A DNA stretch of 64,000 nt from Burkholderia seminalis DSM 23518 (GTDB taxonomy: Bacteria; Pseudomonadota; Gammaproteobacteria; Burkholderiales; Burkholderiaceae), in contig NZ_CADFDK010000019.1 in assembly GCF_902832885.1 (NCBI RefSeq), forward strand, positions 42,453-106,452. The letters run 5' to 3'. Under the pieces are notes generated by a model that was given only the letters and a program-made list of their open reading frames with translations, was not told the DNA's origin and did not search any database. This document shows positions 48,121 through 54,485 of this stretch, piece by piece. Made by a program: the position numbers and the translations under genes. Numbering within the stretch: position 1 is the stretch's first letter; each line of letters starts with the position of its first letter.

Positions 48121-48729
48121 TCAGCTGCGCTTGACGCGGTAGACAGCAAGACTACCACGCCAGTTCGCTCCCCATCGAATCGGCTGGCCCTCGTGCAGCA
48201 CGACGCGGTCGAGGATCGTGACGCCGACTTCGGGCGCGAGCGCCTCGAAATCCTTGATCGTCAGCACCCGCACGTTCGGCGTGTTGTGCCACTGGTACGG
48301 CAGCGATTTCGACACGGGCATGCGGCCGTGCAGCACCGACAGCCGGTGCGGCCAGTAGCCGAAGTTCGGGAACGACACGATGCACTCGCGGCCGACGCGC
48401 GCCGTTTCGCGCAGGATCGCGGCCGTCTGGTGGATCGTCTGCAGCGTTTGCGACAGGATCGCGATGTCGAAGCTGTGGTCCTCGAACAGCCGCAGGCCGT
48501 CCTCGAGATTCTGCTGGATCACGTTGATGCCGTTCTTCGCGCTCGCGAGCACGCCCGCGTCGTTCAGCTCGATGCCGTAGCCGGTGACGTCCAGTTCCTC
48601 CATCAGCAGCGCCAGCAGCGAGCCGTCGCCGCAGCCGAGGTCGAGGACGGTCGAGCGCGGCTCGACCCAGCGCGCGATCGTGCGGAAATCCGCGCGCGCG
48701 GACAGGGAATTCAGCGCTTGCTGGTTCAT
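48121..48729 (-). CDS. metW: Methionine biosynthesis protein MetW
   Basis: A 202-residue class I SAM-dependent methyltransferase-like protein. The SAM motif is [15 protein letters not shown], followed by [14 protein letters not shown]. MetW is found paired with MetX and is needed for homoserine acylation in several bacteria. Here its ATG overlaps the metX stop (ATGA at 48726-48729), so translation is coupled and the metX leader should control both. Confidence 0.93.
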
Positions 48730-49871
48730 GCACCCACCTCGTTGGCGATTCGTTCGTAATACGCGCGGATCAGGTTGTGATAGCGCGCGTCGTCGAGCAG
48801 GAACGCGTCGTGACCGTGCGGCGCATCGATTTCCGCGTAGCTGACCGTGCGCTTGTTGTCGAGCAGCGCCTTCACGATCTCGCGCGAGCGCGCGGGCGCG
48901 AAGCGCCAGTCGGTCGAGAAGCTCGCGATCAGGTACTTCGCCTGCGTGTGCGCGAGCGCGGCCGTCAGGTTGCCGTCGAACGCCTTCGCCGGGTCGAAGT
49001 AGTCGAGCGCGCGCGTGATCAGCAGGTACGTGTTCGCGTCGAAGTAGTCGGCGAACTTGTCGCCCTGGTAGCGCAGGTACGATTCGACCTCGAATTCGAC
49101 GTCGAAGCTGAAGTTGTACGCGTCGAGCGCGCCGTCGGCGCGGCGCAGCGCGCGGCCGAATTTCTCGGCCATGTCGTCGTCGGACAGGTACGTGATGTGG
49201 CCGATCATCCGCGCGACGCGCAGGCCGCGCTTCGGTTTCACGCCGTGCGCGTAGTAGTCGCCGCCGTGGAAGTCGGGATCGGACAGGATCGCCGAGCGCG
49301 CGACCTCGTTGAACGCGATGTTCTGCGCGGACAGCTTCGGCGTCGACGCGACGTCGATGCAGTGCGCGACGCGCTCCGGATACATCAGGCTCCACGCGAG
49401 CGCCTGCATGCCGCCGAGGCTGCCGCCCATCACCGCGGCGAAGCGCTCGATGCCGAACGCGTCGGCGACGCGCGCCTGCGCATGCACCCAGTCCTCGACG
49501 GTCACCACCGGGAACTTTGCACCGTACGGCTTGCCGGTCGACGGATCGATGCTCATCGGGCCGGTCGAGCCGAAACACGAGCCGAGGTTGTTCACGCCGA
49601 TCACGAAGAAGCGGTTGGTGTCGAGCGGCTTGCCGGGGCCGACCATGTTGTCCCACCAGCCGGTGCTGCGCGGATCGTCCGCGTAGACGCCGGCGACGTG
49701 GTGCGACGCGTTGAGCGCGTGGCAGACGAGCACCGCGTTCGAGCGCGCGGCGTTGAGCTCGCCGTACGTCTCGACGACGAGCTGATAGTTGCCGATCACG
49801 CTGCCGCTTTGCAAGCGCAGCGGTTCGGCGAAGTGCATGGTCTGTGGAGCGACGATGCCGATCGATTCCAT
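48726..49871 (-). CDS. metX: Homoserine O-acyltransferase MetX (probably succinyltransferase)
   Basis: A 381-residue alpha/beta-hydrolase-fold enzyme that acylates homoserine, the first committed step to methionine. The nucleophile is Ser151 in MGGSLGGMQ. The C-terminal Asp and His are in STDWRFAP and PHGHDAF. MetX of this group in Burkholderia is generally assigned succinyl-CoA as donor; I cannot settle acetyl versus succinyl from motifs. The start at 49871 has AAGGCGG 5 bp upstream. A SAM-II riboswitch lies in the leader. Confidence 0.93.
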
Positions 49872-49876
49872 TCGTT

Positions 49877-49904
49877 CCGCCTTATGACTGGGCGGCTAAA
49901 TGGT
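49877..49904 (-). promoter_or_regulatory. metX ribosome-binding site with anti-SD segment
   Basis: On the minus strand AAGGCGG (49877-49883) precedes the metX ATG by 5 nt. TTTAGCCGCC (49891-49900) just upstream contains CCGCC, which can pair with the GGCGG of the ribosome-binding site (9-nt loop). Its TTTAGCCGC part is also the exact complement of GCGGCTAAA in the riboswitch 3' strand (49947-49955). The two pairings exclude each other. Confidence 0.6.
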
Positions 49905-49942
49905 GTCGGCGAGGCGCGGAGTCGGAGATGCGCGGCTGACGA

Positions 49943-50039
49943 CCTCTTTAGCCGCATTTGTAGTGAACCGCCGGGACGGAGACATCGTCAACGCCCGGCC
50001 GGTTCGCGCGCCCGCAATCGAGTCAGCAAATCGGCGCGC
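49943..50039 (-). ncRNA. SAM-II riboswitch upstream of metX
   Basis: Read on the minus strand, P1 is GCGCGCC (50033-50039) with GGCGCGC (50006-50012). The 20-nt loop between them starts GATTTG and ends ATTGCG, matching the SAM-II GAUUU and AUUGC elements. The conserved 3' part AAATGCGGCTAAAGAGG (49943-49959) forms the pseudoknot and carries the SD-like AAAGAGG. Between them sits an extra hairpin, AACCGGCCGGG (49994-50004) with CCCGGCGGTT (49966-49975), one G bulged. It should switch metX-metW off when SAM is plentiful. Confidence 0.85.
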
Positions 50040-50767
50040 TCCGACCTGCCGCCCGAGGAGCGACAGTCGGCAAAGTATAGCGGAAATTGCGCGGCGCGGA
50101 TTCCGGCACGCATGGCGCGGCGTGCCGCCGGGCGCCGGTCACTGCAGGATCAGCCGCAGATGCGCATCGGCCTGCTCGCCCGGCGGCTTGTGGAATCCGC
50201 CTTTCGCGAAGCGGTGCCAGCGGCCGATCACGTAGCTGACGAGCAGGCTCGCGCGGGCGGCGGGATCGTAGTCGGCCGGCAGCACGAAGGGCGTCGCGCC
50301 GTCGGGCGCCTGCGCCTCGGTGCGCGCGACGCGCAGGCATTGCTTGACGGTCGCCTCGATGCGGTCGAGCAGCTGGTTCACGCGCTCGGTCAGCCGCTCG
50401 TCCTCGCCGACCAGCGCCTCGCCGGTCAGCACGCGCGTCATCCCGGGGTTCTTCGCGGCGAAATTGAGCATCGTCAGCGCGATCGTTCGGGCCTGCAGCA
50501 CGCCGTTCGGTTCCTTCGCGACGATCTGGTTGACGAGCCCGAACAGCGCCTGCTCGATGAATTCGATCAGCCCTTCGTACATCTTCGCCTTGCTGGCGAA
50601 GTGCCGGTACAGCGCGGCTTCCGACACGTCGAGCCGGGCCGCGAGCGCGGCGGTCGTGATCTTCTCGGGTTTCGGCGCCTCGAGCATCGTCGCGAGCATC
50701 TGCAGGATCATGACGCGGCGCTCGCCCGGCTTGGGGCGCGGGCGCGAGGGGGTAGCCTGGCTTTCGG

Positions 50768-54485
<3,718 letters not shown>

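Follow-up and report, generated by a model that had tools for sequence, protein, structure and literature searches.

The metX locus

The window analysed here is a 64-kb stretch (64,000 nucleotides) of the Burkholderia seminalis DSM 23518 genome, and coordinates refer to the window, with the elements of interest on its (-) strand. The metX gene (48726..49871, -) encodes homoserine O-succinyltransferase (NCBIfam NF047916, MetX_succinyl; 692.4 bits, cut-off 560) and is followed on the same strand by metW (48121..48732, -; TIGR02081, 266.5 bits, cut-off 189.5). The AUG of metX, read from the sequence, is at 49871-49869 (-), and a Shine-Dalgarno-like GGCGG precedes it at 49877..49881 (-). This element is kept among relatives, standing 4-6 nt ahead of the AUG in 104 of 107 leaders compared; two of the 107 (L121 and L164) have no GGCGG at the usual place. 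Upstream of metX an open reading frame (50139-51053, -) matches the nucleoid occlusion factor SlmA (NF007015, 290.2 bits, residues 104-304); as listed it is longer at the N-terminus by about 100 residues, and its start is probably wrong.

Scanned against Rfam at curated thresholds, the 64-kb window yields two tRNAs and no other match, and a search for terminator-like sites on the metX strand between 49700 and 50250 found none. A TATACT box at 50074-50079 (-), within TTTCCGCTATACTTTG, lies 35 nt upstream of the P1 stem described below; we take it to be a -10-like box, and boxes like it are also found upstream of most Burkholderia-type leaders among those listed. A promoter scan gave no sigma-70-type match. 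Directly upstream of P1 there is a GC-rich hairpin, CCGACUGUCGC...GGCAGGUCGG (50041-50070, -), which is perhaps a stabilising 5′ stem and which has counterparts in some other Burkholderia leaders.

An aptamer of the SAM-II type in the metX leader

The metX leader contains a set of elements that correspond to those of a SAM-II aptamer. The P1 stem (50007..50038, -), recognized from the sequence and the alignment, pairs CGCGCC (50038-50033) with GGCGCG (50012-50007) around a loop L1 that reads GAUUUG...CGAUUGC. The 3′ core strand AAAUGCGGCUAAAGAGGUCG (49940..49959, -), identified in the alignment and by model R2 described below, includes the 3′ side of the P2 pseudoknot, in which GGUC (49944-49941, -) pairs with GACU (50024-50021, -); a possible further U-G pair, between 50025 and 49940, was left out of the P2 count.

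A search with MetX gave 80 loci, with Burkholderia loci at 99% identity among them, of which 53 have an aptamer core upstream of metX as judged by pattern and 27 have none. P1 and the core are 10-13 nt apart in 12 of these 53 loci (the compact form) and at least 23 nt apart in the other 41 (the expanded form); L026, whose parsed value of 115 nt is wrong owing to a second GCTAAA, has a linker of about 40 nt. Going by record titles, the compact form is found in Bordetella, Achromobacter, Advenella, Lautropia and Variovorax, and the expanded form in Burkholderia, Paraburkholderia, Caballeronia, Trinickia, Pandoraea, Cupriavidus, Ralstonia, Collimonas, Herbaspirillum and Undibacterium.

Thirty-four beta-proteobacterial aptamers (alignment A3, hand-chosen from the 53 pattern-positive loci plus the window) share 30 invariant columns, with compact and expanded forms taken together. 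Five of the P1 pairs are invariant and P1 is paired in 98.0% of cells, the variation being confined to a closing pair that occurs in CG, GC, AU, UA and UG forms and is unpaired in four of the 34. Three of the four P2 pairs have changes on both sides, with 88.8% of cells paired, and across the whole aptamer structure 92.8% of cells are paired. None of 500 shuffles match the observed paired cells, double-changed cells, pair types or covariation score; on the last of the five measures, the number of double-changed pairs (nine), 26 of the 500 reach the observed value. Slid versions of the alignment score lower on every measure, and because kin sequences can beat shuffles without any structure, we give more weight to these slid controls and to the many distinct inserts considered in the next section.

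The sequence-only reading that preceded this analysis had described a clear SAM-II aptamer, a description that has to be qualified in view of Rfam's own model. When the metX leader (49840-50145) is scanned permissively, with E up to 10, the Rfam SAM-II model RF00521 (SAM_alpha) gives it 14.1 bits, below its cut-off of 36; P1 and L1 are aligned in register and core positions are deleted beside an inserted hairpin, since the model has no room for 41 nt of hairpin between P1 and the 3′ core. The lack of a SAM-II model hit was among the outcomes that the sequence-only reading had named as refuting it; we do not take this one as decisive. SAM_alpha exceeds its Rfam threshold in seven of 20 scanned loci, all of them compact, and two further compact loci (L055 and L078) fall under it. 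Model R2 consists of 16 compact aptamers only (alignment A4; 12 compact metX loci and four from the order search) and excludes the window; of the 13 members scanned with RF00521, eleven are above its cut-off and two, L055 and L078, are below it, the remaining three members being L070, L077 and L080. On the 64-kb window R2 matches the metX leader from end to end with 36.1 bits (E 9.2e-9), the next match having 11.3 bits. Applied to 20 further loci it picks up each of the 17 with an aptamer at E ≤ 3e-4, although in L012 and L079 the 5′ half alone reaches that level, and in the three without the motif it gives E > 0.4 or no match. A second model, R1, built from the 34 aptamers including the window, gives the metX leader 79.2 bits in a search of its own genome, a score that is partly circular because the window is in the training set.

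The leader thus shares with RF00521 the P1 stem, the GAUUUG of L1, the UUGC, the GCUAAAGAGG core, the P2 pseudoknot and a methionine gene downstream, and differs from it in the 41-nt hairpin, in its score and in the apparent control of a distant Shine-Dalgarno (SD) sequence through a separate switch strand. Given the R2 match, we read the RF00521 shortfall as a limit of the Rfam model and file the RNA as a SAM-II variant. These comparisons support a SAM-II riboswitch variant with an inserted hairpin, for which SAM would be the ligand.

The inserted hairpin

The insert (GAACCG...CGGUUC; 49965..50005, -) is 41 nt long, lies between P1 and the 3′ core, and is absent from compact SAM-II; its arms are GAACCG(g)CCGGG and CCCGG-CGGUUC. 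An extra hairpin at this position had been proposed from the sequence alone, and both covariation and a fold test of distinct inserts bear it out. All five closing pairs tested change on both sides among the 34 aptamers. For the fold test the inserts, 15-48 nt as parsed, were merged to 118 distinct sequences, with L093 (which has no insert) left out; 106 of the 118 close with at least five consecutive pairs, where shuffles predict 6.5, and the mean fold z-score is -3.47. The inserted hairpin is real. SAM-II is described as having no P3 helix between P1 and the 3′ core (PMC6061858); here a covarying 41-nt hairpin occupies that stretch.

On the MetX tree the expanded form requires two changes as compared to 11.1 for shuffled labels; on this tree the form may have a single origin but need not. 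In Collimonas, Herbaspirillum and a lichen MAG (L043, L046, L053, L059, L069) the metX leader has an additional insert within loop L1, in places self-complementary (GGU..ACC, UCGU..ACGA).

A proposed switch strand complementary to both the aptamer core and the start region

All of the pairing elements quoted in the sequence-only reading are present where it placed them on the (-) strand: GCGGCUAAA (49955-49947), UUUAGCCGC (49900-49892), AGCCGC (49937-49932), CCGCC (49895-49891) and GGCGG (49881-49877). The central element is a switch strand, GCCGACACCAUUUAGCCGCC (49891..49910, -), recognized by conservation and folding, which is complementary to two partners, the core strand of the aptamer and the region spanning SD and AUG. 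Two mutually related structures are predicted from it. In the SAM-free anti-aptamer hairpin (49892..49955, -), which emerges from pairing and from the RNAalifold consensus of 26 leaders, GCGGCUAAA pairs with UUUAGCCGC and the helix continues through GGU/ACC, GUC/GAC and GC/GC to a top stem of GCGC/GCGC. In the SAM-bound sequestering hairpin (49868..49903, -), predicted from pairing and folding, CCAUUU/GAAUGG and CCGCC/GGCGG together cover the SD and the AUG. The scheme as first proposed can be extended on this model, with GGU/ACC, GUC/GAC and GC/GC added to the anti-aptamer helix and the start codon covered in addition to the SD. A local alternative hairpin in the sequence, GCGGCU/AGCCGC (49932..49955, -), could trap the core strand early in transcription.

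For the wider comparison the parser accepted only leaders with GCGGCUAAAGAGGU, so that GCUAAAGCGAG-type cores are excluded; 144 of 220 records passed, reducing to 130 distinct ones. Of these, 107 of the 130 were used for complementarity, 106 (L025 out) for identity, and 104 of the 106 (L121 and L164 skipped) for folding. The two parts of the switch strand have mean identities of 0.96 and 0.97 over the 106 leaders, as against 0.64 and 0.55 in neighbouring stretches. Complementarity to GCGGCUAAA extends over nine of nine positions in 86 of the 107 leaders, eight of nine in 20 and seven of nine in one, and 18 of the 107 contain UCUAGCCGC, which places an A-C mismatch in the anti-aptamer helix. 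The switch strand can pair with the SD at five of five positions in every one of the 104 leaders analysed, and the sequestering hairpin reaches the start codon by pairing of CCRUUU with GAAUGG.

Covariation does not support the switch pairings. In the 26 Burkholderia-type leaders of alignment A2 the anti-aptamer hairpin is paired in 98.4% of cells, versus 22.9 to 47.2% for versions shifted by 1-3 columns; shuffling tells nothing here, as all 500 shuffles reach the observed values. No pair between 49891-49900 and 49947-49955 is changed on both sides in these 26 leaders, an outcome that the sequence-only reading had likewise named as refuting it; we do not regard this as decisive because the aptamer strand is invariant and cannot vary. 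The CCGCC/GGCGG sequestering pairs are paired in 97.7% of cells in the same leaders, likewise with no double changes, and two of the five measures are reached by 78 and 77 of 500 shuffles.

Leaders were folded from the core strand onward, which presupposes that P1 and the insert have already formed as the RNA is transcribed, and a locked state was imposed as a pairing ban on 19 core positions; this is a stand-in for SAM binding and models neither the pseudoknot nor SAM itself. Locking the core lowers the openness of the SD in 104 of 104 leaders and that of the AUG in 103, with mean openness falling from 0.35 to 0.004 for the SD and from 0.66 to 0.04 for the AUG. The mean probability of the sequestering pairs rises from 0.09 to 0.97 on locking, and that of the anti-aptamer helix is 0.84 without locking. 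Accessibility falls by 0.48 on average, compared with 0.04 in 1040 shuffled-spacer controls, 0.4% of which reach the natural median; both the SD and the AUG are less than 0.1 open when locked in 87 of the 104 leaders and in 8.1% of controls.

The pattern is not without exceptions. Six of the 104 leaders stay sequestered in the free state, and in a smaller folding trial with 26 leaders five (L008, L012, L016, L017 and L023) favour the sequestered form when free, and L009 forms no CCGCC/GGCGG pairs when locked. A clear switch is seen in folding only if the fold starts at the core with P1 taken as formed, and even so the free SD is on average no more than 0.35 open. When the whole leader is folded unconstrained, most of the SD is already engaged in pairing without locking (mean unpaired 0.11, 26 leaders), because the 5′ end pairs with the coding region. 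In a separate test with RNAduplex of the core strand against downstream sequence, p ≤ 0.05 was obtained in 23 of 55 leaders, including 21 of the 26 Burkholderia-type leaders, the other five having p > 0.05 relative to shuffles. The order of switching put forward in the sequence-only reading is thus favoured by conservation and by the folding of 104 leaders against shuffled controls, and finds no backing in covariation.

Distribution and variation of the downstream elements

R1 has a match in 271 of 399 genomes sampled across the window's order, and a sampling of the family gave 242 of 299; on 399 genomes of the order RF00521 has a match at E ≤ 0.001 in 177 and above its cut-off in 69. Thirteen genomes of the window's family fall within the order sample, and R1 matches six of these and RF00521 none. 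A search of the window's own genome with RF00521 gave no match, but the control genomes were silent as well, and we do not read this as absence. Of the 41 genomes of the window's genus that are listed with an R1 match, 40 have at least two. From the family-wide R1 matches 80 regions were fetched, together with 28 new loci. One locus, L067, is titled as an Alistipes senegalensis MAG; its metX groups with Oxalobacteraceae and it has a beta-type aptamer, and the record is probably mislabelled or contaminated.

The sequences downstream of the aptamer differ among relatives. Two Pandoraea leaders have a different switch strand with CGACC, CUUU and CCGC blocks that pairs with the same core strand (RNAduplex p 0.003 in L025 and 0.007 in L027). 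In Cupriavidus and Ralstonia the insert is present and is followed by a U-tract of the terminator type, which is preceded by UUGGCUGC or a close variant that is complementary to GCGGCUAA; judged from these sequences, such leaders may form an antiterminator. In five Cupriavidus and Ralstonia leaders the core duplex is not significant relative to shuffles (p 0.076 to 0.435), and in L035 the best RNAduplex differs from the terminator arm. RNAduplex is likewise not significant for Oxalobacteraceae, for compact leaders and for the metZ leader of the window's own genome, and because of these non-significant results we claim no anti-aptamer strand in any of these four groups.

A second aptamer at metZ and Rfam family RF02424

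The second R1 match in the own genome lies upstream of metZ, which encodes O-succinylhomoserine sulfhydrylase. This is a second SAM-II aptamer with a small insert (L082 1501-1570, equivalent to C13:172136-172205 of the own genome, -), identified with R1 and scoring 14.2 bits with SAM_alpha, and it is followed by a hairpin and U-tract resembling a terminator. A location upstream of methionine or SAM genes, one of the marks of SAM-II, is common to the metX and metZ copies.

The metZ leader also matches Rfam family RF02424 (Bp2_287, 'Burkholderia sRNA') with 202.8 bits (L082 1429-1602), but on the strand opposite metZ, so that the Bp2_287 sRNA covers the metZ SAM-II locus in the reverse orientation. 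RF02424 exceeds its threshold in all 41 genomes examined from the window's genus; the strand was compared in seven loci (L082 and L220-L225), and in all seven R1 lies on the metZ strand and RF02424 on the other. The family thus appears to have been modelled on the antisense strand, and a strand error in RF02424 is probable. The Bp2_287 candidate was described using oligo(dT)-primed RT-PCR (PMC3521395), a procedure that, as set out there, does not clearly settle which strand is transcribed. Searching paper texts for 'RF02424' turned up nothing.

Interpretation of the metX leader

We favour an interpretation of the metX leader as a SAM-II riboswitch that has an insert at the position of the SAM-V P3 and acts as a translational OFF switch, and put its probability at roughly 0.8. 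When SAM is scarce the 3′ core strand GCGGCUAAAGAGGU would pair with the switch strand ACC-UUUAGCCGC in a long hairpin, leaving the ribosome-binding site more open. When SAM is bound the pseudoknot would hold the core strand and set the switch strand free to pair with the SD and start codon (CCGCC/GGCGG and CCRUUU/GAAUGG); with both sequestered, translation of metXW would fall. The identity of the ligand, the direction and order of switching, and translation as the controlled step are all inferred.

Some of this has precedents in published work. SAM-II in beta-proteobacteria, mostly with terminators, was already included by Barrick and Breaker in 2007 (PMC2258182). Leyn et al. (2014) describe a new 'metXZ' element upstream of metXW and metZ in beta-proteobacteria, for which a pseudoknot is proposed and no ligand is named; their table places it in eight of eight Burkholderia and six of six Ralstonia genomes, in a single copy per genome and with terminators downstream throughout, and they report a terminator mechanism, and SAM_alpha in Rhizobiales and Rhodobacterales only (PMC4239095). 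The metX leader resembles metXZ in lying ahead of metXW, in its beta-proteobacterial host and in having a pseudoknot, but differs in that no intrinsic terminator precedes metX and that there is a second copy at metZ. Our reading is that the orphan metXZ element is SAM-II, the two being equated by position and by the published description (PMC4239095). Within the open-licence literature (subscription papers lie outside this search) we found no paper that names metXZ as SAM-II or that describes a hairpin insert in SAM-II. A 2022 paper uses the B. thailandensis metX 5′UTR as an OFF-repressed control construct with 0.05 mM methionine, reports that it is repressed far less strongly than a fluoride riboswitch (a 117-fold difference), and states that regulatory elements in the metK, metX and metZ 5′UTRs are confirmed by unpublished data (PMC8814607).

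A first alternative accepts the SAM-II aptamer and places control elsewhere, in Rho-dependent termination or in mRNA decay set by the pseudoknot, the downstream hairpin then being mainly an mRNA-stability or anti-Rho structure. The switch helix has no covariation support, the Cupriavidus and Ralstonia leaders have terminator-type U-tracts, Leyn et al. place terminators downstream of metXZ throughout (PMC4239095), and an S. meliloti SAM-II riboswitch also affects mRNA stability (PMC9373788). The S. meliloti metA riboswitch acts on translation that begins at a start codon 74 nt beyond the SD, and its SD lies inside the aptamer (PMC9373788), whereas in the metX leader the proposed switch strand would sequester a separate SD and AUG. 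Against this alternative are the complementarity of one strand to the aptamer core as well as to the SD-AUG region, a folding response far above that of shuffled controls and the absence of an intrinsic terminator from the metX strand at 49700-50250, and we consider it unlikely.

It is also conceivable that the aptamer, in its expanded form, has come to recognize another ligand or a second one, such as SAH or another SAM derivative. The insert is large, and aptamer variants with changed ligands are known (PMC10853860), but compact and expanded forms have 30 invariant columns in common, metX is a known SAM-II target and Leyn et al. report the SAH riboswitches of Burkholderia as elements of their own (PMC4239095); this makes drift of the ligand very unlikely.

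The P3-like hairpin raises the question as to whether the leader is SAM-V and not SAM-II. SAM-V is described as having a P3 stem-loop that directly follows P1, an element stated to be missing from SAM-II (PMC6061858). The metX leader has the same pseudoknot kind of fold, a P3-like hairpin directly 3′ of P1, and translational OFF control as proposed here; SAM-V however hides the SD at the end of the aptamer (PMC6061858) and the metX SD is some 60 nt downstream. Among the matches of the permissive Rfam scan (49840-50145, E up to 10) SAM_alpha is present and SAM-V is not, and the compact SAM-II model R2 matches from end to end, leaving this assignment hardly tenable. That the resemblance is due to chance, or to a conserved DNA element and not an RNA switch, is suggested by the high GC content and by an Rfam score under the cut-off but is next to untenable in view of the covariation of the insert and P2 and the E-value of 9.2e-9 with the independent model R2.

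Returning to the SAM-II interpretation, we entertain, with appreciably less confidence than an even chance would imply, that a P3-bearing SAM-II form, present in Burkholderia, its relatives and the Oxalobacteraceae, unites SAM-II with SAM-V in one structural family, and that one anti-aptamer principle has been refitted from one sister genus to another, as a terminator arm in Cupriavidus and Ralstonia, as a joint sequestrator of SD and AUG in Burkholderia, Paraburkholderia, Caballeronia and Trinickia, and as a third strand in Pandoraea. More generally, a ligand is proposed for the orphan regulatory RNA metXZ, and a widespread form of SAM-II that the standard Rfam model misses is described, in which the P3-like insert blurs the structural line between SAM-II and SAM-V. 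A simple two-state switch is offered for the control of metX, and a probable strand error in an Rfam family is indicated.
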